39,736 nucleotides of DNA from Bacteroidales bacterium (GTDB lineage Bacteria; Bacteroidota; Bacteroidia; Bacteroidales; JAFGHD01), in contig JAFGHD010000144.1 of NCBI GenBank assembly GCA_016939365.1, positions 1 to 39,736 on the forward strand, written 5' to 3'. The translations under genes were made by a program, and so were the position numbers. Positions 9,396 through 22,279 of the stretch are shown one piece after another. A model generated the notes under the pieces. That model worked only from the letters and a program-made list of their open reading frames with translations. It did not search any database and was not told the origin of the DNA. Within the stretch, counting starts at the first letter, position 1; each line of letters begins with the position of its first letter.

Positions 9396-9418
9396 ACCAA
9401 ACACTTGATTCGCGGGTG

Positions 9419-10654
9419 ATGCCAGTGGAAAATAGCGGACGCCGAACGATCCCGGCCATGCTGGTGCTGGCTTTATTGCTTTCCTGTTTCCGGAATCATC
9501 CGGACCCGGGACCCACCGGGGAGCCGGCTATGCCTCTGCCCCTGATCACAGGCGCATCCAGAACGGAGTTTTACCTGCCCATGATTCTCGGAAAGTCTGT
9601 AGGTGTCGTGGCAAATCATTCATCAAGGATAGATGATGCACATCTGGTGGACAGCCTGGGCAGCCTGGGAGTCAAAATCACCCGGATTTTCTCCCCCGAG
9701 CATGGGTTCCAGGGAACCGGCGAAGCCGGAGAGACCATTCGCGATGGCAGGGATGCATCCTCGGGAATCCCGGTAGTTTCCCTTTACGGCCATAAAGTAA
9801 AACCTCTGCCGGAGGACATGAAGGGCATTGATGTGATGATATTTGATATCCAGGATGTGGGTGTGAGGTTCTTCACCTACATAAGCAGCATGACCTATGT
9901 CATGGAAGCGTGTGCAGAAAATGGCATTCCGCTGATCATCATGGACCGACCAAACCCCAACGGGGATTATATGGACGGGCCGGTATTGAGTCCTGAATTC
10001 AAATCATTCGTCGGATTGCACCCGGTTCCTGTGGTTTACGGAATGACCATCGGAGAGTATGCAGGTATGGTGAACGGCGAGGGATGGCTGGAGGAGGGGC
10101 TAACCTGTGAGCTGACCGTGATCCCCATGGACCATTACCGGCGGGATTCCGTTTTTCCGCTGCCCGTCAGGCCATCGCCCAATCTGCCCCGGATGGAGGC
10201 CGTCAGACTGTACCCTTCCCTATGCTTTTTCGAGGGCACCATCATCAGCGTCGGAAGGGGTACAGATGCACCCTTCATGATGATCGGCCACCCGGAATAC
10301 GAAGGCGGAGACACCTCGTTTACACCCCGGGATATGCCGGGTATGGCAACAGATCCACTATACAAGGGAATGGAATGCAGGGGGTATTCCCTGATCCTTT
10401 TCGCAAGGCAAAATCTTTTAAAAGAAAGCTCCATAATCCTCTCCTGGCTGATAGACCTGAACAGGTATTTTGCCGGCCGTAAGGAATTTTTCACAGGTTA
10501 TTTCGATTTGCTGGCTGGGGACAGCCTTCTGAAAAAACAGATATCCGCAGGTGTTCCGGAAGAAGAGATCAGGCTCAGCTGGAAAAATGATCACGACACG
10601 TTCCGCCGGATCAGGAAGAAATATCTTCTTTATCCCGACACGAATGAAAAATAA
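9419..10654 (+). CDS. DUF1343 lipoprotein, NamZ-like exo-beta-N-acetylmuramidase
   Basis: The protein belongs to the DUF1343 family, whose characterised member NamZ releases terminal N-acetylmuramic acid from peptidoglycan fragments. The sequence begins with a lipoprotein signal (LALLLSC, Cys23), so it is probably membrane-anchored facing the periplasm or outside. Family hallmarks are VGVVANHSS, the motif FSPEHGFQG (around residues 90-99), FDIQDVGVRFFTYISSM, MDRPNPNGDYMDGP and a C-terminal LSWKNDHDTFRRIRKKYLLY. The ATG at 9419 is preferred over the preceding GTG. The M14 carboxypeptidase gene begins six bases after the stop, so the two may be co-transcribed, which would pair glycan and peptide hydrolysis. 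Confidence 0.88.
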   Translation: MPVENSGRRTIPAMLVLALLLSCFRNHPDPGPTGEPAMPLPLITGASRTEFYLPMILGKSVGVVANHSSRIDDAHLVDSLGSLGVKITRIFSPEHGFQGTGEAGETIRDGRDASSGIPVVSLYGHKVKPLPEDMKGIDVMIFDIQDVGVRFFTYISSMTYVMEACAENGIPLIIMDRPNPNGDYMDGPVLSPEFKSFVGLHPVPVVYGMTIGEYAGMVNGEGWLEEGLTCELTVIPMDHYRRDSVFPLPVRPSPNLPRMEAVRLYPSLCFFEGTIISVGRGTDAPFMMIGHPEYEGGDTSFTPRDMPGMATDPLYKGMECRGYSLILFARQNLLKESSIILSWLIDLNRYFAGRKEFFTGYFDLLAGDSLLKKQISAGVPEEEIRLSWKNDHDTFRRIRKKYLLYPDTNEK

Positions 10655-10660
10655 ACCATC

Positions 10661-13387
10661 ATGAAAAAAACGGCATTGCTGGCAGGCCTGGTCACATTGG
10701 GCTGCATTCAGGGCCTGTCCCAGATCAATCCCGATCCGGACATCCTGTTCAGGGAACACAGTGAAACATGGATCGCTTTTACACTGGCTGATCCTTCAGA
10801 TATCGGTGAGGTCTCAAGGATCGTGTCTGTTGACAGATTTGACGGAAAGGAGGTCATTGCCAATGCAAGCCGATCTGAGATGGAGCGATTTCTCTCACTC
10901 GGGATCGATTACAGACTGTTGCCTCATCAGAGTGAAGGATTCGATATACCCATGAAAGATGTCACAGGGTGGAAGGAAAGCAAGGCTTGGGATACGTACC
11001 CGACTTATGAGGCATACGTTTCCCTCATGTACCAGTTTGCGGCAGATTATCCGGGTCTGTGCCAGGTTTTCAGTATCGGACAGTCGGTGCAGGGCAGGGA
11101 ACTCCTCATGGCCAGGATATCGGACAATCCCGGGATGGAAGAGGATGAGCCGGAATTCCTGTACACATCCACCATGCATGGGGATGAAACCGCAGGATAT
11201 ATCCTCATGCTGCACCTCATCGATTCATTGCTGACCGGGTACGGGTCAGCACCCCGGATCACAGAAATGGTGAACAGCATGGATATCTTCATCAATCCCC
11301 TGGCCAATCCCGACGGCACCTATGCAGGAGGCAACCATACCGTCTCAGGTGCCACCCGCAGGAATGCCAATTATGTTGACCTGAACCGGAATTTCCCCGA
11401 CCCGGAGGACGGTCCCCATCCCGACGGAAATCCCTGGCAGCCGGAAACGGTCGCATTCATGTACTTCGCTGAAGGAAGGAACCTGGTGATGTCATCGAAC
11501 ATTCATGGCGGATCGGAAGTATGCAACTACCCGTGGGATACCTGGGCCAGGCTGGCGGCTGATAATGACTGGTGGGTATTCGTTTGTAACGAATATGCCG
11601 ATACCGCGCAGTATTACAGCCCACCGGGATATTTTGACGATTTCGGCACCGGAATCACCAACGGCTATGCCTGGTACACCATCTCCGGAGGCAGGCAGGA
11701 TTATATGAACTATTTCCATCAATGCCGCGAATTCACCCTGGAGATATCAGCCACCAAACTCCTTCCGGCGAACCAGCTGATTGCCTGGTGGGGTTACAAC
11801 CGGCGTTCGTTCCTGAACTACATGGAGCAATGCCTTTACGGTTTACGGGGAGTGGTCACGGATTCCATCACCGGTGCCCCCCTCACCGCTGAGATCTACA
11901 TCCTGGATCATGAGATGGACAGCTCATGGATTTACAGCCACCTGCCAATGGGCAACTACCACCGGCCGCTGTTTGCAGGGAGCTATTCCGTGAAGTTCTC
12001 TGCCCCCGGGTATTTCCCGAAGATCATCCATGAAGTGACCATAAGCGACTACGCCACAACCATTTTGGACGTGCAGTTGGTGCCGGGTGAAGTGATCGCC
12101 GACTTCACCGCTTCAAAGACAATCATTGAAACCGGATCATCCGCCAGCTTCACCGACCTTTCCTGGGGGCCTCCCGAGAACTGGGACTGGAACTTCCCGG
12201 GAGGAACCCCGGCATCCTCCACCCTCCAAAATCCCACGGGGATCACCTACGCTGCATCAGGCTCGTTCCCTGTCGGATTAACAGTTACCAAGGGAACCGC
12301 CACAAATACACTTCTCAGGAATGATTACATATTCGTCGGCGACCCGCTGATCATGCAGAACGGGACATTCACCGGGTGTCATTACCTGTTCTATGATTCC
12401 GGCGGGGCCGGAGGCAGTTACGGAAACAGCCAGGATTTCACCCTCACCATCTATCCGGGGGCACAGGATAGCAAGATCGTGGCGGATTTTTACGCTTTTG
12501 AGCTGGAAAGCCATTCCAGCTGCAATTACGACTGGCTCAAGGTTTTTGACGGCCCCTCCGTCACCGCACTGATGATCGGCACATTTTGCGGGACAAACGG
12601 TCCCGGCACGGTCACTTCCACCCATGGTACCGGTGCGCTCACCTTCCAGTTCCACTCCGACAACAGCGTGGTCAAGCCGGGATGGGAAGCCAGGGTATGG
12701 TGCGAAGCAGAACCCTTCGCTCTTGATCTGAAAGTGTTCCTGGAAGGTCCTTTTGAAAACGGCTCCATGAGCACCCATCTTAGTTCGCTGGCCACGTTTC
12801 CGCTCTCGCAGCCATACCAGGGCGCACCCTGGAACTATGCCGGCTCAGAAGCGGTTAGCTCTGCGCCGGGCAGCCCGGTCACGGACTGGATATTGCTGGA
12901 ACTCAGGGATGCCCCATCCGCCGGGCAGGCCACCATCAGCACCCGTCTGGCACGCAGGGCACTGTTCATTCTCAGTGACGGCACCATCAGAGACCTGGAT
13001 GCATCCTCCCTTCCGACATTCAGCCTGACCGTCCAGCATCAGCTCTTTGCCGTCATATGGCACCGGAACCACCTGGGAGTGATGTCGGCCAATCCGCTTC
13101 CTTCTGCAGGAGTTACCAGATCTTATGACTTTACCGGCAGTGCTGCCCAGATTTACGGAGGTGCGCTCGGATGCCGTGAACTGGCTCCCGGAGTGTGGGG
13201 AATGACAGGAGGCGACGGCGATGCGAGCGGAGAGATCAACAACGGAGATAAAATCGAAGTCTGGAGCCCACAGGCCGGGAACGGAGGTTACCTGCCCGGA
13301 GACTTCAATATGGACACCGAGGTCAATAACGATGACAAAAACGAGCTTTGGGGCCCGAATACGGGACGCGGATCACAGGTGCCCTGA
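10661..13387 (+). CDS. Secreted M14 zinc carboxypeptidase with PKD, CUB and dockerin-like C-terminal module
   Basis: This is a 908-residue extracellular metallopeptidase. After a signal peptide (cleavage near GLSQ) comes an M14 peptidase domain, about residues 110-385. It has zinc ligands His173 and Glu176 (MHGDE), His282 (NIHGGSE) and catalytic Glu361 (FTLEIS). It continues with a carboxypeptidase regulatory-like domain (LRGVVTDSITGAPL, about 395-475), a PKD domain (about 477-560) and a CUB domain (about 565-680). The last 220 residues (from about 687) form a module shared with the protein at 19430-22279, ending in two calcium-loop-like motifs, GDGDASGEINNGDK and GDFNMDTEVNNDDK. There is no recognisable T9SS sorting domain. 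Likely job: digesting extracellular peptides. Confidence 0.92.
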   Translation: MKKTALLAGLVTLGCIQGLSQINPDPDILFREHSETWIAFTLADPSDIGEVSRIVSVDRFDGKEVIANASRSEMERFLSLGIDYRLLPHQSEGFDIPMKDVTGWKESKAWDTYPTYEAYVSLMYQFAADYPGLCQVFSIGQSVQGRELLMARISDNPGMEEDEPEFLYTSTMHGDETAGYILMLHLIDSLLTGYGSAPRITEMVNSMDIFINPLANPDGTYAGGNHTVSGATRRNANYVDLNRNFPDPEDGPHPDGNPWQPETVAFMYFAEGRNLVMSSNIHGGSEVCNYPWDTWARLAADNDWWVFVCNEYADTAQYYSPPGYFDDFGTGITNGYAWYTISGGRQDYMNYFHQCREFTLEISATKLLPANQLIAWWGYNRRSFLNYMEQCLYGLRGVVTDSITGAPLTAEIYILDHEMDSSWIYSHLPMGNYHRPLFAGSYSVKFSAPGYFPKIIHEVTISDYATTILDVQLVPGEVIADFTASKTIIETGSSASFTDLSWGPPENWDWNFPGGTPASSTLQNPTGITYAASGSFPVGLTVTKGTATNTLLRNDYIFVGDPLIMQNGTFTGCHYLFYDSGGAGGSYGNSQDFTLTIYPGAQDSKIVADFYAFELESHSSCNYDWLKVFDGPSVTALMIGTFCGTNGPGTVTSTHGTGALTFQFHSDNSVVKPGWEARVWCEAEPFALDLKVFLEGPFENGSMSTHLSSLATFPLSQPYQGAPWNYAGSEAVSSAPGSPVTDWILLELRDAPSAGQATISTRLARRALFILSDGTIRDLDASSLPTFSLTVQHQLFAVIWHRNHLGVMSANPLPSAGVTRSYDFTGSAAQIYGGALGCRELAPGVWGMTGGDGDASGEINNGDKIEVWSPQAGNGGYLPGDFNMDTEVNNDDKNELWGPNTGRGSQVP

Positions 13388-13767
13388 GACAGCAGTGCAT
13401 TCAGACATTCACTGAGGCACCCATTACCACATCCGGTAACTTGTCATTTCCCCCGGTGAAGCAACAGCTTAATTCCGGTCTATTCCATCTTCTTTGTTTT
13501 AAATGGATTATCACATGTTACAAATCCACCTACATTGATGAATCCAAATCATAGAATTACAGAATTTTGAGGAACCTGTCAATTTCGCGTTAAGAAATAA
13601 TGAATTTTTCTTTGATTTTAAGAATATCCTGCATAATTTTGAGTCGATAATGCCCGCATTTGGAAACAAACTGCTTGCGACAGAAAATTGTTTATGGTAT
13701 TATACTAATTATCAAGACATTAGACATTGGTCCAAACAATAATTCATTCAAACCAAAAACAGCAGTT
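13388..13767. other. Intergenic region with the adhesin promoter and leader
   Basis: These 380 bases between the carboxypeptidase and adhesin genes hold no convincing gene. The promoter at 13611-13641 lies inside it, followed by a leader of roughly 120 nucleotides. An in-frame ATG at 13660 would add 36 residues ahead of the signal peptide and is not believed. Confidence 0.6.
13611..13641 (+). promoter_or_regulatory. Full Bacteroidota promoter of the giant adhesin gene
   Basis: A -33 box TTTG (13611-13614) is separated by exactly 19 bases from the -7 box TAATTTTG (13634-13641). This is the canonical Bacteroidota sigma-ABfr arrangement. Transcription would start near 13647, giving a leader of about 120 nucleotides before the ATG at 13768. 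Confidence 0.72.
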
Positions 13768-16700
13768 ATGAAAAAATGGCTACTCCTTGCTCTGGTTTTT
13801 CTGACAGGTCTCAGCACCTTCAGCCAGACGACCGTCACCATCGGGACGGGAACTTCAACGAGCTATATGTATGGGCCCATTTACAGGTCCAGTTCATCCA
13901 GCTCGTATGATTACAGCAGTTACTGTTACCTGCTGACTGCGGATGAGCTTTACAATGCGGGCGTCTGCAACGGCGCGGTGATCTCCCAGCTGGCCTGGGA
14001 CAAGGTAAGCACCTTTACCTCAAACGGCAATGCGACCTTCACCATCTATCTGAAGAACTCATCCCTGACGACACTGACCACCGGCACGCAGTGGCAGAAT
14101 GTACTTGCGGGAGCCACAATGGTTTACCAGAACACGGCACAAACCATTCCGGCTGCCGGTTGGCTCAATTTCCCTCTGGGTACCAGCTTCACCTATACAG
14201 GCGGAGCCCTTGAGGTGATCGTCGACTGGGATTGTTCCATGATCTCAGGCAGTCCATCCACAGGATCCTACACATGGCATTACACTTCAGCGCTGACTTT
14301 CAACGGTACTATCGGCCGGGCCTCCAGTTCGGCCATCACACCCACAACCACCCTCAATACTTCCAGCTATGGAGGTACAAACCGCCCCAACATCCAGATC
14401 ACTTACACGGGCGGTGTATGTGGTCCCGGCAATCCTGCGTCCTTCACCGCAACGACCGTCAGCAGCAGCCAGATCGATGTGGCCTTTACGCCCAATACCA
14501 ACACCGATCCTGTTGCCATCGTATGGAATCTGACAGGTGTGTTCACAGATCCCCTGGGAGCACCTCCCGCGCCCGGACAGCCTTTCGCAGGCGGAACCCT
14601 GTTGTATTACGGACTGGCATCACCGCAGAACCACACAGGTCTCACCCCGGCGACTACCTATTATTACAAGGGGTTCTCCTATGACGGGGCAACCTATTCT
14701 GCAGGATCCACAGCCGATGCGACTACTCTCTGCGTTGCAGTGCCTATGCCCTGGTCGGAAGGCTTCAATGCATCCACCATCCCGACCTGCTGGTCAACGT
14801 TTATCGTGGCCGACCCGGGCACTGACCCGGTTATTTCTTTCGAAACCACAGGAACCAGTCCTGTCTGCACGCCTCCGGAAGGAACCCACATGGTAAAATT
14901 CAACTCATACAATTGCTCCTCGGGTGCATCCATCAGGCTCATCAGTGGCCCATTCTCATCTGTCGGTGCCACCAATGTGACCGTTGCCTTCAAATGGCAC
15001 CAGGATCCGGGATATTCAAGCTACCTCAATGAAGGCATGACCGTACAGTGGAGCACTGACGCCGGTAACACATGGAACAGCGGCAACTTCTACCAGAGGT
15101 ACGATCCGGTGATCGGATGGCGCGACATGGTGGAGACACTGCCCCCGGCTGCCGCCAACCAGCCCGATGTATTGCTCGGGTTCCTCTTCTATTCGCAGTA
15201 CGGCAATAACTGCTACATGGACTTTGTGGATGTGTATGAGCAACAGACAGGCGATCTGAGCGGATATGTAACAGAGCTCTCCACGGGCAATCCGCTGGCT
15301 GGTGCGGTGGTTGACTGCGGCGGCTACCTCTCGGCACCCTCCGCACCCGACGGTTCCTATACCATCACCAATATCGTCACAGGCACCTATGATGTCTATT
15401 GCTCCCTGGCCGGATACAATACCGGAGTGGCCAACGGTGTGGTGATCAGCAGCGGGATGAACACCCAGAACTTCGCGCTGACACAACCGACCATGACCGT
15501 CACCCCGCCAGCCATCACGATGGATGTATACCCGGGATTCGGCGCTACGTCCACCATCACAGTAACGAATAACGGCAACGGGCCGCTGAATTTCTCAGGT
15601 TACATTCAGTTCCTCACCGACCAGGCCAGCCTCACCTTCACTGAAGTGCCTGCAGCCGGACCTTCGAGCCCGGATATCGAATCTGCACCCGGCGCCACCA
15701 TCATGGAGAACGGCACGGACAACAAGGCCATGTGGGATGTTGCCTTCTCCTTCGATGCCAATGAAGGTGCACAACCCGGGCTGGAGACCGACGGACAGTA
15801 TATCTACACCTCTACATGGTCTTCTTCGTTCACCACACCCTTCTGGTTCCACAAATACGACTTTTTCGGAAACGTGGTCAGTGAATTTGACATCGCGGGT
15901 GCCACAGCCATCCGCGACATGGCCTATGACGGAACCTACTTCTATGGCGGCGCTGCAACGAACCTGATCTATATCATGGACTTCACGACACAAACCCTGG
16001 TGGGTACCATCCCCACAGCCACGGGCGTGACCGTCAGGCATATCGCCTATGACCCGCTGGCCAACGGCGGTGCTGGCGGCTTCTGGGTAGGCGATTTCGG
16101 TACCCTCTACCTGGTCAGCATGAGCGGAACCACCCTGACCACGGTGGCAGCTCCGGGTATGACAGGTATGTACGGCTCAGCCTATGATGGCGTCACACCC
16201 GGCGGACCCTACCTCTGGCTCTTCGATCCGGCAACCACCGGTGCGACACCCTATGTCAAGCAGTTCGACATCGCTACCCTCGCCCTCACAGGCGTACAGC
16301 ACGATGCCACCGATCTGCCCGGATTCAATGCAGGCATCGCAGGCGGCCTCTGCTCCTGGTACAATGCTTCGTCCGGTCAGTTCCTGCTCATCGGCAGCAT
16401 GCAACAGACGCCCAATCTGGTCTTCGGATACGTCCTGCAGGATGGCTGGGTGGACTTCACTCCCAAGACAGGCACGGTGGCAGGCAGCAAAGCCAGCATG
16501 GACCTCACCGTCACCTTCAACTCACTGAGCTACCCCGTGGGCACCACAAAGACCGCGATCGCACATTTCAACTCAGATCCCAACGTGGGAACCGGACAGG
16601 TGGCGCTCACCATGAACGTCATCGCACCCACCAACACGGTGGACTGGTGTAACCTGCAATGGCCGCCTTCAGCCAACATCAATGCCGGACAGACCACCAC

Positions 16701-19050
16701 GATATACGCGCGGATATGGGAAGACGGCGTCACCAACTTCCCGGGACCTGGTTCAGGAGTCAATGCATGGATCGGTGTGTCCACCACAGATACTGACCCG
16801 GCCACCTGGACAAACTGGATACCGGCCATTTACAACCAGGATTACGGCAATGACGATGAATGGATGGCCGATATCGGAGCCGGACTCATGCCCGGAACCT
16901 ATTACTACGCCAGCCGGTTTAACCTCGGCGGCGGACCGGATGCCTACGGCGGATACAATGCGGGCGGCGGCGGATTCTGGGATGGCATTAATAATGTATC
17001 AGGGATCCTCACCATCGGGAATCCATCTGCAATGGTCTGGACCGGTACCATCGACAGCGACTGGCACAACCCAGGCAACTGGGATATCTATGCTGTACCC
17101 GGCCCCGGAACCGATGTGACCATACCCTCCGGATTGACGAACTATCCGACACTGGGTACACCCGGCACATGCAACAACATCCTGATCGAATCGAATACGG
17201 CTGGTACAGCCACCCTTCTGGATGCAGGGCTGCTCACTGTCAATGGCACCTCTACCGTTCAGCGTTACTATGCAGGTGGTGGCGGTGATGTTCCGGAGAT
17301 GATCTATTATAAGTTTGAAAATCCGGGCGGTGCTGATGTTCCCAATGATGCATCCTCGCCGGTGGGCAACAATCCGGCTCCTGTACTTGGCATGACCATG
17401 GGCGGCACAGGGCAGTTCGGATCCGCACTCATCGGAACCGGAGCTTCATCTTCAACCAGCTATGTCAATGTCGGATGGTCTGTCAACCTGCCCTCCACCG
17501 GATGGACCATCTCCATGTGGCTGGATATTCCCAGCAGCACTACCCTGTACTACCTGTTCGGCGACCCGGGAGCATCTTCATTCCGGTGTTTCGCAGGTGG
17601 CGTTGCAGGAGCGGGGAACCTGATCATCCGCGGCGGCGGACTTACAGACACCTACATCAACGGTGTGGCACCCGGTCCTTCGGTAGCCCATTTTGTCTAT
17701 ACAGGCAGCTCCATGGATGTATATCTGAACGGAGCATATCAGGGTTCTGTGGCTCAGCCATCCGTGACAATAGCCGGTACCGGATTCAAAGTGGGAGGCT
17801 ATAGCACTTCAACAGGGCTTAACGGCTCCATGGACGAATTCAGGATGTACAGCAGGGCACTCACACCAACAGAGATCGCAGATAGCTGGAACGTCCTGCT
17901 TCCTCAGGCGTCCACTGCGTGGCACCTGATCTCTTCACCGATCAGCAATGCACTGTCGGGACTTTATACCGGTATGTACCTGCAAACTTATCATGAGGCG
18001 ACCATGCAGTGGATCGACATCATCCCGACCACCATCAACCTGCTGCCCCTCAAGGGCTATGCACTCTGGGTGGGCGAACTCGCGGTCGACTATGTTGGTC
18101 CGTTCAATACAGGCAACATCGGTTACCTGCTGAAAGCCGACAACCCTTACGGATGGAATCTACTGGGAAATCCCTACCCCTCCTCCATCGACTGGGATAT
18201 GGTAACCATCCCTGGTTACATGAACGGAGCCATCTATTACCTGGATGCCGTATCAGGCAACTATGTCTCCTATAACGGCGGTATGGGCGGCGGTTCACAG
18301 TATGTGCCTCCCATGCAGGGATTCTTCGTCAGCTCTACCGCCCAGGGTCCATTCTATGTCGACAACTCTGTGAGAAGTCACGTCAACGGATCATCCTACT
18401 ATAAGGAAGAACTGGTTAACATGGCAGTCATCCAGGCTTCGGGCAACGGATTCACCGACAAGACCTACATCCGCTTCGATGAATCCTCATCCTACGGCTT
18501 CGACGGCCAGTTCGACGCCTACAAGCTCTCAGGCCTCGAATTCAACAGCCAGCTGCCACAGATATTCACCCTGGCAGGACATGAGCTTTCCATCAATGTC
18601 CAGCCATTTGCCGAGACCATTGCGGCAGGCTTCAGATCAGGTGTCTCCGGTAACTTCACCATCGGCCTCTCCGAGCTGCGCGACATCTCCGTCGTCATCC
18701 TCGAGGACCTGGTCACCGGAACACTCACCGACCTGACCCAAGGATCCTACTCATTCGATTACACCACTTCGGATGATCCCAACAGGTTCCTGTTGCACTT
18801 CGCCCCGCTTGCCATCCCCGAAAACGCCGATCAGAACGTCAGCATCTACGCCTTCGGAAAGGATGTATACGTCTCTGTACCGGACAACATGTCGGGTGAC
18901 ATCCAGGTCTTCAACATGATGGGCCAGGCGGCCATTTCAACCACCGTCTCCTCAGCCCTCAACAAGATCACCGTGGCGGAGGCCGGAACCTATGTGGTCA
19001 GGCTGATCTCAGGTAAAGAGGTCATCACCGAAACCGTGATCATCAGGTAA
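13768..19050 (+). CDS. Giant multidomain surface protein with T9SS type A sorting domain
   Basis: The ATG at 13768 gives a clean signal peptide (MKKWLLLALVFLTGLSTFSQ) and a 1760-residue product. Visible parts, in order, are an N-terminal beta-rich region, a fibronectin-like segment and a cleaved-adhesin/MAM-like domain (about 325-487, WSEGF start and CYMDFVDVYE end). These are followed by a carboxypeptidase regulatory-like domain (about 496-573), a repeated beta-propeller-like region (about 650-890), a WTGTIDSDWHNPGNW domain (from about 1090) and a LamG domain (about 1177-1375, ending MDEFRMYSRALTPTE). The last 70 residues are a T9SS C-terminal domain (SIYAFGKDVYV, IQVFNMMGQ, GTYVVRLISG). It should be exported by T9SS and attached to the cell surface for adhesion or binding. 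Codons ending in C look unusually frequent, suggesting high expression. Confidence 0.93.
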   Translation: MKKWLLLALVFLTGLSTFSQTTVTIGTGTSTSYMYGPIYRSSSSSSYDYSSYCYLLTADELYNAGVCNGAVISQLAWDKVSTFTSNGNATFTIYLKNSSLTTLTTGTQWQNVLAGATMVYQNTAQTIPAAGWLNFPLGTSFTYTGGALEVIVDWDCSMISGSPSTGSYTWHYTSALTFNGTIGRASSSAITPTTTLNTSSYGGTNRPNIQITYTGGVCGPGNPASFTATTVSSSQIDVAFTPNTNTDPVAIVWNLTGVFTDPLGAPPAPGQPFAGGTLLYYGLASPQNHTGLTPATTYYYKGFSYDGATYSAGSTADATTLCVAVPMPWSEGFNASTIPTCWSTFIVADPGTDPVISFETTGTSPVCTPPEGTHMVKFNSYNCSSGASIRLISGPFSSVGATNVTVAFKWHQDPGYSSYLNEGMTVQWSTDAGNTWNSGNFYQRYDPVIGWRDMVETLPPAAANQPDVLLGFLFYSQYGNNCYMDFVDVYEQQTGDLSGYVTELSTGNPLAGAVVDCGGYLSAPSAPDGSYTITNIVTGTYDVYCSLAGYNTGVANGVVISSGMNTQNFALTQPTMTVTPPAITMDVYPGFGATSTITVTNNGNGPLNFSGYIQFLTDQASLTFTEVPAAGPSSPDIESAPGATIMENGTDNKAMWDVAFSFDANEGAQPGLETDGQYIYTSTWSSSFTTPFWFHKYDFFGNVVSEFDIAGATAIRDMAYDGTYFYGGAATNLIYIMDFTTQTLVGTIPTATGVTVRHIAYDPLANGGAGGFWVGDFGTLYLVSMSGTTLTTVAAPGMTGMYGSAYDGVTPGGPYLWLFDPATTGATPYVKQFDIATLALTGVQHDATDLPGFNAGIAGGLCSWYNASSGQFLLIGSMQQTPNLVFGYVLQDGWVDFTPKTGTVAGSKASMDLTVTFNSLSYPVGTTKTAIAHFNSDPNVGTGQVALTMNVIAPTNTVDWCNLQWPPSANINAGQTTTIYARIWEDGVTNFPGPGSGVNAWIGVSTTDTDPATWTNWIPAIYNQDYGNDDEWMADIGAGLMPGTYYYASRFNLGGGPDAYGGYNAGGGGFWDGINNVSGILTIGNPSAMVWTGTIDSDWHNPGNWDIYAVPGPGTDVTIPSGLTNYPTLGTPGTCNNILIESNTAGTATLLDAGLLTVNGTSTVQRYYAGGGGDVPEMIYYKFENPGGADVPNDASSPVGNNPAPVLGMTMGGTGQFGSALIGTGASSSTSYVNVGWSVNLPSTGWTISMWLDIPSSTTLYYLFGDPGASSFRCFAGGVAGAGNLIIRGGGLTDTYINGVAPGPSVAHFVYTGSSMDVYLNGAYQGSVAQPSVTIAGTGFKVGGYSTSTGLNGSMDEFRMYSRALTPTEIADSWNVLLPQASTAWHLISSPISNALSGLYTGMYLQTYHEATMQWIDIIPTTINLLPLKGYALWVGELAVDYVGPFNTGNIGYLLKADNPYGWNLLGNPYPSSIDWDMVTIPGYMNGAIYYLDAVSGNYVSYNGGMGGGSQYVPPMQGFFVSSTAQGPFYVDNSVRSHVNGSSYYKEELVNMAVIQASGNGFTDKTYIRFDESSSYGFDGQFDAYKLSGLEFNSQLPQIFTLAGHELSINVQPFAETIAAGFRSGVSGNFTIGLSELRDISVVILEDLVTGTLTDLTQGSYSFDYTTSDDPNRFLLHFAPLAIPENADQNVSIYAFGKDVYVSVPDNMSGDIQVFNMMGQAAISTTVSSALNKITVAEAGTYVVRLISGKEVITETVIIR

Positions 19051-19057
19051 ATCTTTC

Positions 19058-19087
19058 GGTTACCGCCGGGGAATCCCGGCGGTAACC
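19058..19087 (+). promoter_or_regulatory. Perfect 13-bp hairpin between adhesin and PID-CTERM genes
   Basis: GGTTACCGCCGGG (19058-19070), a four-base GAAT loop, and its exact complement CCCGGCGGTAACC (19075-19087) form a very stable stem eight bases after the adhesin stop codon. No T-run follows. It therefore looks like a 3'-end stabiliser or processing site separating the adhesin message from the following small gene, rather than a classic terminator. Confidence 0.65.
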
Positions 19088-19121
19088 TTCACCAATTGGT
19101 TATCATCAAAAAGAAACAGAT

Positions 19122-19340
19122 ATGAAAAAAGCAGCAAAAATCCTGATCACAGCGGCTTTCCTTTCGGCAGCACCTCTTTTGCTCCTGGCTCAGACACCTC
19201 CCCACCCCAACGGAGGCAATGCACCCGGACCCGGAAACACTCCCGTCGGCGGCGGAGCCCCCCTGGACGGAGGACTGACCGTCATGCTCATCCTCGGTGC
19301 CGCCTACGGAACACGCAAAGTGTTTCAGTTGAAAAAGTAA
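19122..19340 (+). CDS. Small secreted PID-CTERM-like protein
   Basis: The product is only 72 residues. It has a signal peptide (residues 1-24, ending LLLLAQ), then a Pro/Gly/Asn-rich stretch, then the tripeptide-like signal PLDGG. A transmembrane helix (LTVMLILGAAYGTRKV) and a basic tail (KK) follow. Signal, short conserved motif, hydrophobic helix and basic end together match C-terminal protein-sorting domains; the PLDGG motif resembles the Bacteroidota PID-CTERM type. Its mature part is barely 30 residues plus the anchor. It sits 71 bases after the adhesin stop, behind a strong hairpin, and is followed by its own terminator. Its function is unknown. Confidence 0.78.
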   Translation: MKKAAKILITAAFLSAAPLLLLAQTPPHPNGGNAPGPGNTPVGGGAPLDGGLTVMLILGAAYGTRKVFQLKK

Positions 19341-19356
19341 TTCTGCATCAAACCTG

Positions 19357-19388
19357 AAAAAAAGCCCCTGTCTACGGGGCTTTTTTTT
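19357..19388 (+). terminator. Intrinsic terminator after the PID-CTERM-like gene
   Basis: A run of seven A residues leads into GCCCC, a seven-base loop, then GGGGC and eight T residues. The A and T tracts extend the stem, so it could act on both strands. It closes the adhesin and small-protein unit, 16 bases after the stop codon. Confidence 0.9.
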
Positions 19389-19429
19389 CGGTTCATATTT
19401 ACGATATTTGGGCACTTTTCCTCATCACC

Positions 19430-22279
19430 ATGAAAGCGAACCTTCACTTTTTTCCCGCGGTCTTTCCGGCGCTGATCGCTATTCATATTGCCAGTGCCCA
19501 GATCGTCATCGACCAGAACGATATGCCGGGCATCGGAGATACGATCCGGTATGATGTTACCTATAATATATCTGGCATCAACTATACTGCCACGGGATCA
19601 GGCTTTACCTGGGACTTTTCAGACCTCGGATCATTGCTTCCCCAGGAAGCAGATACGTTTGTCCATGTATGGTCCACACCGATTCTGTACCAGCTTGTTT
19701 TCCTTTACCCGTTTGTTGCCAACCTCGCCTCACCGCAGGAGGAATTTACGCTGATACCGGGATTCCAGATGACTGAAGTTTTTAATTTCTATAAAAACAC
19801 TTCATCCTCCTACAATGAAGTTGGGAAGGCATTCACAGTCAATGACCTGCCCCTTCCCTTTCTGTACAGTGAACCGGATGTAATCTACCGGTTCCCTCTG
19901 CAATTCAGCGATCTGGATTCAAACACCTGTGAATGGAATGTCGGGTTGCCCGGCCTGGGTTATTATGGCAGCACCCTGAAGCGGAAAAACCATGCAGACG
20001 GCTGGGGCACGGTCATCACGCCCTTTGGCACCTTCGAAGCCCTGAGGGTAAAAACTACTGTTGAACAGAGAGATTCTGTATATGTGGATACGCTTGGTTT
20101 TGGTTTCGCCTTTAACTACGACCGTATCGAGTACCAGTGGCTGGCCAAGGGGTTTGGAAGACCCCTGGTTAAGGTGACTGAGTCGGGCATCCTTCCCCCG
20201 GTCATTGAATACCTGAATTTCCCTGAGGTGACCCTGACTGTTGATCTGGGAACGGATCAGCATATTTGCCTGGGTGAAACGACGGGCATCAAGGCTGAAG
20301 TAACCGGTGGAACACCGCCCTACTACTACCTGTGGAATACATTCCAGTTCGGGGATTCCATCACCGTCACACCGGAGGGAAGCACACTTTATTCAGTATG
20401 GGTGACGGACAGCGAATTGCACTTTGCAACCGACAGTGTATGGGTATGGGTACACCCGCCCCCTGTAGTAAATGCGGGGCAGGACACCTCGATAATCCTC
20501 ACAACTGCCTTTCATCTGAATGGAAGTGCTGCCGGTGGGATACCGCCATATTCCTATGAATGGTCGCCATCCAGCTGGCTTTCCGACCCGACCATTCCGG
20601 ATCCACTGTGCTCCCCGCCCTTCAGTACTGAATATACATTATCGGTAACAGACAGTCTCGGATGCACAGGCCAGGATAAGGTATTGATTGAAGTGATACA
20701 GGTACCCGTCCATCCCATTTCCGGTACCGTCAATGAATCTGTTACGGGACAAGGGCTTACGGGGGTTGAAATCGGTTTCACGGGACTGATGCCCGTCATC
20801 ACGGACGCACAGGGCTCATACAGCAAAGACGTTCATGAAGGATGGTCGGGTACGGCGAAACCAGCCATGGAAGATTATTATTTTGTTCCCGACTCAGTAG
20901 TGTATAATAATGTCACAGGCCCTGTTTCAAACCAGGATTACCTTGCTTTCTTTGTTTCACCTCCTGAATACCTGATCGCTGGAACCATAACGGATCAGCA
21001 GACCGGAAATCCTGCCGCCGGCATCAGCCTGATTTTTGAAGGCTTTGGCAATGCCATGACCAACGATACAGGATACTACAGTCTGAACGTGCCTGAAGGC
21101 TGGAGTGGCACCGTCACCCCCGTGGGCTACCTTTTCGATCCGCCATCACGATCCTACGTCAATATCATGGCAAATTTCCCTGACGAGGACTATGTAAGGC
21201 TCCAGGGAGGGCTCCCGCCGGGATGGAATGTCACCCCGACCAACAGCTGGCATCTGCTGAATATCCCGCTTGATGCAAATCCGCGCATCTACGGAACGCC
21301 TATCAGTACAGGGGACTACATTGGTGTATTTTATATAGATACTGAGGGAATAGAACAATGCGGTGGCGCGGTTTCCTGGACCGGGTCATCAGCCGTGAAT
21401 ATGACCGCTTACGGGGATGACCCCGGCACATCCGTCAAGGAAGGTTTCGACCAGCTGGAAAACTTTATCTGGAAAATCTACCACTGGAGTTCCTTCAGCG
21501 AATATTATGCAGAGGCGGAATATCACTGGCTGTTCCTGAACGACGGGAAGTTCCACAATATGGGTTTCTCAAGACTGACAGACCTGGAAGTCATGGGAGT
21601 GGCTCTGGATATCCGGGCATTTCTGGAAGGGTGTTACCAGGGATCAGCCATGTCGGTTACACTCAATAACAACGGTCTGTTACCACTTTCCCAGCCCTAT
21701 TCCATCCTGCCATGGATTTATACAGGTACCGAAGAAGTATCTGCGATCCCCAACAGCCACATTGTGGACTGGGTTCTGATCGAGGTCAGGGAAAATACAA
21801 CAAAGGGAAATCCTCTCACGGAAGGCATCATTGTGTCGCGCCAGGCGGGCTTCATCAGGGATAACGGTTTGATCACCGGCCTCAACGGGGCCAGTAAAAT
21901 GGTGTTCCAACTGAACAGCGTCTCGGACCTGTTTCCGGTCATTTATCACCGCAACCATCTGGCCATCACCTCACAGAACCCGATGATCCTGTGTGACGGA
22001 CGACTTGTTGCCGATCTGACCTCTTTACTACAGGTTTCAGGAGGGACACTTGCAGCAAAAGAGATCGCACCGGGATGCTGGGCCATGATCGCCGGAGACG
22101 GAAATGCCAACGGCCAGATCAACAATCCGGATAAAAACAGCGTATGGATGCCTCAATCCGGAACCACAGGGTATCTGAGCGGGGATTTCAACATGGACGG
22201 GCAGGTAAACAACCAGGACAAAAACGATTATTGGGCTCCCAATTGCGGCAGGGGGACACAGGTTGTCGCCATTCCATAG
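19430..22279 (+). CDS. Secreted PKD protein with dockerin-like C-terminal module
   Basis: The 949-residue product begins with a signal peptide (cleavage near IASAQ). Residues 25-260 are a beta-rich region typical of T9SS-associated proteins, with no enzyme motif seen. PKD/SprB-like repeats follow (from about 265 and about 346, GGIPPYSYEWSP, LSVTDSLGC). Two tandem carboxypeptidase regulatory-like domains come next (SGTVNESVTGQGLTG from about 428 and AGTITDQQTGNPAAG from about 517), both containing GWSGT. From about 724 to the end is the module shared with the M14 peptidase at 10661-13387, with calcium-loop motifs GDGNANGQINNPDKN and GDFNMDGQVNNQDKN. No classic T9SS sorting domain is visible. 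It is likely extracellular and adhesive or structural. Confidence 0.85.
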   Translation: MKANLHFFPAVFPALIAIHIASAQIVIDQNDMPGIGDTIRYDVTYNISGINYTATGSGFTWDFSDLGSLLPQEADTFVHVWSTPILYQLVFLYPFVANLASPQEEFTLIPGFQMTEVFNFYKNTSSSYNEVGKAFTVNDLPLPFLYSEPDVIYRFPLQFSDLDSNTCEWNVGLPGLGYYGSTLKRKNHADGWGTVITPFGTFEALRVKTTVEQRDSVYVDTLGFGFAFNYDRIEYQWLAKGFGRPLVKVTESGILPPVIEYLNFPEVTLTVDLGTDQHICLGETTGIKAEVTGGTPPYYYLWNTFQFGDSITVTPEGSTLYSVWVTDSELHFATDSVWVWVHPPPVVNAGQDTSIILTTAFHLNGSAAGGIPPYSYEWSPSSWLSDPTIPDPLCSPPFSTEYTLSVTDSLGCTGQDKVLIEVIQVPVHPISGTVNESVTGQGLTGVEIGFTGLMPVITDAQGSYSKDVHEGWSGTAKPAMEDYYFVPDSVVYNNVTGPVSNQDYLAFFVSPPEYLIAGTITDQQTGNPAAGISLIFEGFGNAMTNDTGYYSLNVPEGWSGTVTPVGYLFDPPSRSYVNIMANFPDEDYVRLQGGLPPGWNVTPTNSWHLLNIPLDANPRIYGTPISTGDYIGVFYIDTEGIEQCGGAVSWTGSSAVNMTAYGDDPGTSVKEGFDQLENFIWKIYHWSSFSEYYAEAEYHWLFLNDGKFHNMGFSRLTDLEVMGVALDIRAFLEGCYQGSAMSVTLNNNGLLPLSQPYSILPWIYTGTEEVSAIPNSHIVDWVLIEVRENTTKGNPLTEGIIVSRQAGFIRDNGLITGLNGASKMVFQLNSVSDLFPVIYHRNHLAITSQNPMILCDGRLVADLTSLLQVSGGTLAAKEIAPGCWAMIAGDGNANGQINNPDKNSVWMPQSGTTGYLSGDFNMDGQVNNQDKNDYWAPNCGRGTQVVAIP

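Follow-up and report, generated by a model that had tools for sequence, protein, structure and literature searches.

A C-terminal module with a predicted X-module–dockerin fold takes the place of the type A sorting domain on paralogous secreted proteins of a Bacteroidales bacterium

Introduction

The best-described structural counterparts of the element studied here are the type II X-module-dockerin dyads of clostridial scaffoldins (PDB 3kcp, 4fl4, 2b59, 4u3s and others). Our subject is a module of about 221 residues that ends two secreted proteins in a contig of a Bacteroidales bacterium (JAFGHD010000144.1, assembly GCA_016939365.1); the whole stretch analyzed, positions 1 to 39,736 of the forward strand, is called the window below, and all features described in it lie on the plus strand. 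The module resembles the clostridial dyad in the predicted fold of both domains, which fit in one superposition, in the order of the X domain and the dockerin, in its C-terminal place and in its presence on multi-cohesin proteins. It differs from the dyad in sequence (13–16% identity), in number (63 copies in one genome, mostly on peptidases and other cargo), in a conserved HRNH motif in the X domain and in belonging to an outer-membrane bacterium. Type I dockerins (PF00404) have two 12-residue calcium-loop-like repeats and internal symmetry in common with it, whereas at E up to 10 their model, Dockerin_1, recognizes only six of 58 modules, the best of them with E 0.28. In many dockerins, but not all, the two-fold internal symmetry is reported to allow dual binding (PMC5934362).

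The second group to be compared is formed by the C-terminal domains (CTDs) of the type IX secretion system (T9SS), described as types A, B and C (PMC10202324; PMC12618676), of which type A corresponds to the model TIGR04183, type B to TIGR04131 and type C to the ChiA type. Like these domains, the module is found at C-termini in T9SS-positive Bacteroidota, has a constrained end and is carried by proteins mostly provided with Sec signal peptides. It differs in matching no T9SS model and in its length, 221 residues as against about 100 for type A; its predicted fold is that of an X-dockerin, while type A is reported to be a seven-strand sandwich (PMC12618676).

Dockerins have been reported in a few single-cell genomes of Bacteroidota (PMC10266427). 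In Candidatus Stygibacter (Cloacimonadota) a cellulosome-like system has been proposed, with dockerins on secreted enzymes including peptidases and a multi-cohesin protein bearing a T9SS-type C-terminal domain (PMC8542988). Both traits recall the system described here. The Stygibacter dockerins were, according to that account, found by InterProScan, in contrast to the X-dockerin of this work, which has no model, is used tens of times and exchanges with the type A domain. A literature search revealed no title or abstract opening describing the module, most subscription journals being outside its coverage.

Results

The first protein with the module in the window is a secreted M14 carboxypeptidase of 908 amino acids (10661–13387), in which M14, carboxypeptidase-regulatory-like, PKD and CUB domains are followed by copy 1 (221 amino acids, residues 688–908; 12722–13384). 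The second is a secreted SprB/PKD-type protein of 949 amino acids (19430–22279) with SprB-, CarbopepD_reg- and PKD-like stretches upstream of copy 2, which runs to the stop codon (21605–22276; aligned part 21605–22264) and ends in GRGTQVVAIP. The two tails are one homologous module. Their BLOSUM62 local alignment score is 534, while 300 shuffles gave a mean of 33 (standard deviation 5, maximum 52), which rules out chance likeness; tblastn with copy 1 recovered copy 2 at 47% identity over residues 1–220 of 221 (E 5e-63). These results bear out the preliminary description of this DNA, according to which the tails align throughout. All the common points that it had named were found (FLEG, FPLSQPY/LPLSQPY, TDWIL/VDWVL, HRNHL, ELAPG/EIAPG and GRG[ST]QV), and its two calcium-loop-type motifs appear in both proteins as two D-x-[ND]-x4-[VI]-N-N-x-D-K loops. 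It was also right in assigning a T9SS sorting domain only to the gene between them: this gene of 1796 amino acids (13660–19050), which lacks the module, ends in a type A domain (TIGR04183, E 2.8e-07; 18871–19047), and an NCBIfam scan at E up to 0.1 revealed no T9SS model in either module protein. Its statement that the upstream domains differ completely went too far. Each protein has domains of its own, but PKD-like and carboxypeptidase-regulatory-like stretches, some of them matching below the curated cut-off, are present in both, and the upstream parts therefore have minor domain types in common.

The module is predicted to consist of an X-module and a dockerin in the same relative placement as in the X-dockerin dyad. 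An AlphaFold2 model built with 129 homologues had a predicted local distance difference test score of 97.5, with every residue at 90 or above, and a predicted template modelling score of 0.93. The top Foldseek matches of this model were chains of type II X-module-dockerins: 4u3s_B (E 0.01, probability 0.99), 3kcp_A (0.97) and 4wi0_B (0.96). In VIA-align the top eight entries were all type II X-dockerins, each covered by a single superposition (Z 8.8–10.0; 139–145 residues; root-mean-square deviation 3.3–3.8). They were followed by an isolated type II dockerin, 2y3n_B (60 of 60 residues, deviation 1.9, Z 4.9), and then by unrelated folds with Z of 4.2 and lower. Structures of type A T9SS CTDs were absent from the VIA-align rows listed, which does not exclude a likeness to them. 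An earlier model from 58 rows was weak at residues 183–189 and gave nothing in Foldseek at E 0.001; the same eight entries nevertheless came out on top in VIA-align (Z 7.5–8.5).

In copy 1 the X-module-like beta domain occupies module residues 1–160 (12722–13201; its limit was set by eye from the secondary structure of the model). The two calcium-type loops of the predicted dockerin part, which may bind calcium, correspond to residues 165–176 (13214–13249) and 194–205 (13301–13336), and the module closes with QVP (13376–13384). Across the 129 rows the first and twelfth loop positions (D165, D176, D194 and D205) and V220 are at least 90% conserved. The same level of conservation was observed for HRNH in the X domain (residues 114–117; 13061–13072).

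The suggestion that the module is dockerin-like thus agrees with the structural model, and the view that the whole module belongs to no named family holds as well. Alignment A1, from which partial modules were left out, comprised 58 of 64 frames. With these 58 modules, Pfam gave at E up to 10 only the six Dockerin_1 matches mentioned above and scattered single weak matches, and NCBIfam, whose library was confirmed to include TIGR04183, gave at the same limit scattered single matches with no T9SS model among them. A sequence search of the PDB yielded just two unrelated matches (E 0.19 and 0.7). A known sequence family was accordingly rejected, as none of these searches passed a cut-off: the module, by its predicted fold a variant of the dockerins, is covered by no model in Pfam or NCBIfam.

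The preliminary description knew the module from two proteins; the tblastn search of the genome (3.67 Mb in 197 contigs, 97% complete), hereafter the home genome, revealed 63 copies. Fifty-five of them are C-terminal, 46 lying at most five residues from the protein end and nine being followed by 11–22 residues, and eight are mid-protein. The idea of a terminal module therefore stands as a strong bias, mid-protein copies being far rarer than end copies, but not as the invariable C-terminal place of a T9SS CTD. Among 50 frames with a 5′ end, 40 passed a signal-peptide heuristic; inspection by eye recognized a signal peptide in six of the ten misses, the other four being fragments or devoid of one. 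We looked at 11 mid-protein copies, eight from the home genome and three from others, of which one (L294) continues past the end of its contig and another (L296) looks like a fragment. Seven of the proteins concerned (L031, L050, L291, L292, L293, L152 and L162) have a terminal stretch containing [SG]-x-R-C-[LV] that we take to be FISUMP-like. Some mid-protein modules directly follow the signal peptide.

The home genome also has 135 type A hits (TIGR04183), 131 of them over the cut-off. None of these hits shares a frame with any of the 63 module frames, and the 12 nearest pairs of module and type A hit are set apart by frame limits or strand. The mutual exclusion with T9SS sorting domains, which the preliminary description proposed to check, is thus complete in the home genome but not universal: at locus L137 one frame joins a mid-frame module, a cohesin-like stretch and a type-A-like end, the latter two recognized by eye. 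It is the only joint case seen.

Outside the home genome, named genomes gave at least 79 loci; of these 79, 77 have Bacteroidales or Bacteroidetes in their titles, and Chlorobiota and Thermoplasmatota account for one each. It should be mentioned that the contig of the last one (L127), filed under a Thermoplasmatota bin, comes from a binning series in common with Bacteroidales bins and was probably misbinned. We further analyzed an even sample of the phylum, in which 41 of 296 genomes were module-positive, and a sample of the order, with 30 of 247; together they comprise 70 distinct positive genomes. At most 10 or 12 places were scored per genome in these samples, and their copy numbers are lower bounds.

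The module takes the place of the type A domain on paralogous proteins. We compared the cargos of 49 module frames (those with at least 120 residues ahead of the module and its N side complete) with the cargos of 60 of the 135 type A hits. A stretch in common at E 1e-5 or better, partly due to common repeats, was found for 32 of the 49, and for nine module proteins there is a type A relative with more than 40% identity over more than 70% of the cargo. In three pairs the boundary is clean. In the first pair (54% identity over 1129 amino acids) the homology stops 12 residues short of the module and 108 short of the end of the other protein; in the second (48% over 467 amino acids) it reaches the module and stops 88 residues short of the other end, and in the third (32% over 625 amino acids) the two distances are one and 91 residues. 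As for the nature of the cargo, the 25 families listed of the 85 in these 49 frames include peptidases (C25 gingipain-type in seven, C10 in three, M14 in three and C1 in two), MAM (eight) and cohesin (three). Of the parts of a cellulosome, which combines a multi-cohesin scaffoldin with dockerin-bearing enzymes that degrade polysaccharides, two proteins with four cohesins each were found; the cargo among these 25 families consists of peptidases and of binding or structural domains.

Protein ends were compared in the home genome and on named contigs; loci of the phylum sample (from L167 on) and module ends that match the model incompletely were excluded. Among the last four residues [VIL]P occurs in 103 of 106 plain module ends and in 37 of 42 extended ends (counted without L045, which repeats L047), as against none of 60 type A proteins; these rows include several orthologues and are not independent. 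VP is kept less strictly in the loci of the phylum sample. The terminal [VIL]P of the extended ends lies 9–23 residues past the module end. Ten of these ends have lost the inner Pro but retained the terminal one; in five the terminal VP is missing and the inner one present. Mid-protein copies have a terminal VP in none of the ten proteins with an end and an inner VP in four of 11. The extensions in L088–L158, from different bins, have a common [YF]-K-C-x-VP-[EDK]-like end, a likeness that goes beyond VP. The residue ahead of loop 1 is aromatic in all 145 pattern-matched frames (121 W, 12 Y and 12 F), although the pattern allowed eight residue types.

The T9SS translocon SprA was present in all module-positive genomes (41 of 41 in the phylum sample and 30 of 30 in the order sample; 70 of 70 distinct genomes), and the module in none of the 80 distinct SprA-negative genomes of the two samples, whose lists were compared by eye. 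In both samples the module is thus confined to T9SS-positive genomes. All the associations reported here are uncorrected for phylogeny; for SprA, Fisher's test gave p 1.2e-5 with the phylum sample and 0.23 with that of the order. Cohesins are likewise associated with the module. They were detected in 26 of 30 module-positive and 44 of 217 module-negative genomes of the order sample (p 1e-12), and in 27 of 41 and 71 of 255, respectively, of the phylum sample (p 4e-6). In total, 55 of the 70 module-positive genomes have a detectable cohesin, 52 by PF00963 and three more by a custom profile (A4). A link to a cohesin-like or secretion gene, raised as a question in the preliminary description, is therefore seen for both kinds of gene, if incompletely for cohesins.

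In the home genome PF00963 matched 12 places at E up to 1, seven of them over the cut-off. The custom profile revealed 12 cohesin domains in three fetched gene clusters: nine on three module proteins (P0010 and P0011 with four each, P0006 with one) and three on proteins without the module (P0004, P0005 and P0008, one each), whose ends look type-A-like by eye only. Canonical Dockerin_1 matches number three in this genome, two of them over the cut-off; all lie beside cohesin genes, and two of the three proteins have a TIGR04183 domain. The three clusters (L199 on contig C77, L200 on C99, and L064 with L290 on C85) bring together the cohesin proteins, module proteins and all three Dockerin_1 matches of the genome; a small cohesin-dockerin system of a second kind may exist inside the larger one.

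The loop stretches that in a dockerin would serve recognition differ strongly between genomes and are often alike within one protein. We compared one module from each of 27 genomes of the phylum sample (27 of 29 loci; the stretches are unequal in length). The two repeats of one protein had a median score of 58 against each other, whereas the median for repeat 1 with the second repeats of other genomes was 23; comparisons between like repeats gave 39 and 40. In 18 of the 27 genomes the best match of all was the partner repeat in the same protein, the symmetry expected of a dockerin. Since the repeats are alike within a protein and divergent between genomes, both halves probably face one lineage-specific partner.

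Directly upstream of the M14 gene of the window lies a gene for a NamZ-type exo-beta-N-acetylmuramidase (9416–10654).

Discussion

The interpretation that we favor, giving it about an even chance of being correct, is that the module is a C-terminal X-dockerin tail which docks secreted cargo, including many peptidases, to receptors on the cell surface, most likely cohesins. The cargo would leave the cytoplasm by means of its Sec signal peptide and would presumably cross the outer membrane of a T9SS-running cell. The beta-sandwich X-module would then be followed by a dockerin with two putative calcium loops, whose binding face may hold the cargo on the surface by attaching to the receptor. Module-bearing proteins with one or four cohesins would act as adaptors, and cohesin proteins without the module, with their T9SS-tail-like ends, are possible anchors. 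The module may double as an export signal, and the docking role is compatible with a role as T9SS signal.

Several observations weigh against docking to cohesins. No Foldseek match fell below E 0.001, and the identity to the X-dockerins aligned by VIA-align, 13–16%, is low. The preference for the own repeat is absent in nine of the 27 genomes. Support for the anchor role is slender: of the three cohesin proteins without the module, P0004 matches TIGR04183 below the threshold (E 0.0022), and P0005 and P0008 do not match it. The canonical Dockerin_1 proteins could be the real partners of the cohesins. The associations of the module with cohesins and SprA are uncorrected for phylogeny. Finally, neither PF00963 nor the custom profile found a cohesin in 15 of the 70 module-positive genomes, among them five one-contig genomes and one (G340) with at least 12 modules, and the custom profile matched three of 18 module-positive genomes lacking PF00963 but also three of 18 module-negative controls. 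The two last results weaken the notion that a cohesin is always the partner. The preliminary proposal of a sorting or surface-assembly signal that docks onto a partner is thus supported in part, by the predicted dockerin fold, the C-terminal bias and the co-occurrence with cohesins and the T9SS, and is limited by the mid-protein copies, by L137 and by the 15 genomes without a cohesin found.

The runner-up, which we hold to be rather unlikely, is that the module is a T9SS secretion signal of a class beyond A, B and C, read by its fold and its [VIL]P end, docking being secondary or absent. The exchange with type A domains points this way, with its three clean pairs and nine close relatives, and so does the distribution, SprA being present in all 70 module-positive genomes and the module absent from all 80 SprA-negative ones (p 1.2e-5 in the phylum sample); within the order, however, the SprA association is not significant (p 0.23). 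Home module proteins have no type A domain in frame, whereas two of the three Dockerin_1 proteins do, yet eight of 63 copies are mid-protein, the L137 module is mid-frame, and no T9SS model was found among the NCBIfam matches of the 58 modules at E up to 10. The protein ends speak for both sides. [VIL]P is kept at 103 of the 106 plain ends, at 37 of the 42 extended ones and at none of 60 type A ends, and in P. gingivalis the last five residues, KVLVP in HBP35 and KVIVK in RgpB, are reported to be needed for transport (PMC2907840). The C-terminal motif of the P. gingivalis CTD is also reported to matter, while extensions are tolerated (PMC11285876); the likeness of type A ends to the strict module end is therefore imperfect. 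The constraint on the C-terminus may thus keep an export signal in play without proving it, but the module is predicted to fold like a docking module. A combined version, in which the tail is an unrecognized class of T9SS export signal read at its [VIL]P C-terminus and the same module docks the cargo to surface cohesins, a single signal serving export as well as assembly, appears to us unlikely, because a joint claim must be less probable than the signal reading by itself and because support for the cohesin anchors is slender.

The same terminal motif could have a purely structural cause. Dockerins are described as having an intramolecular clasp of an aromatic residue (Trp) and a C-terminal Pro (PMC5934362; PMC5864761), and the terminal VP might be only such a clasp, its Pro stacked on the aromatic residue before loop 1, with no recognition role. 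This would be compatible with docking and agrees with the aromatic residue in 145 of 145 frames and with the frequent lack of Pro in mid-protein copies (inner VP in four of 11). As judged from the sequences, a Trp-Pro clasp would explain the plain ends but fails for extended ones, where the terminal [VIL]P is retained in 37 of 42 cases 9–23 residues past the module and the inner Pro is gone in ten; we hold a clasp alone to be quite improbable. Even less credible, in our estimation, is that the module serves as a spacer or for general binding, for instance of glycans, was spread by duplication and has no sorting or docking role. The diverse cargo, the many copies and the mid-protein ones would suit such a domain, but the C-terminal bias, the exchange with type A, the repeat symmetry and the X-dockerin fold argue against it.

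If the docking interpretation is true, about 30% of the recognizable C-terminally tagged proteins in the home genome (55 module ends as compared with 131 type A domains over the cut-off) escape annotation for want of a family model of the tag. The natural pairs of paralogues with different tails make the number of kinds of T9SS signal testable. Docking by this module would show an outer-membrane bacterium building a dockerin-based surface with peptidases prominent in the cargo, and the exchange with the type A domain hints at a second route for placing proteins on the cell surface.

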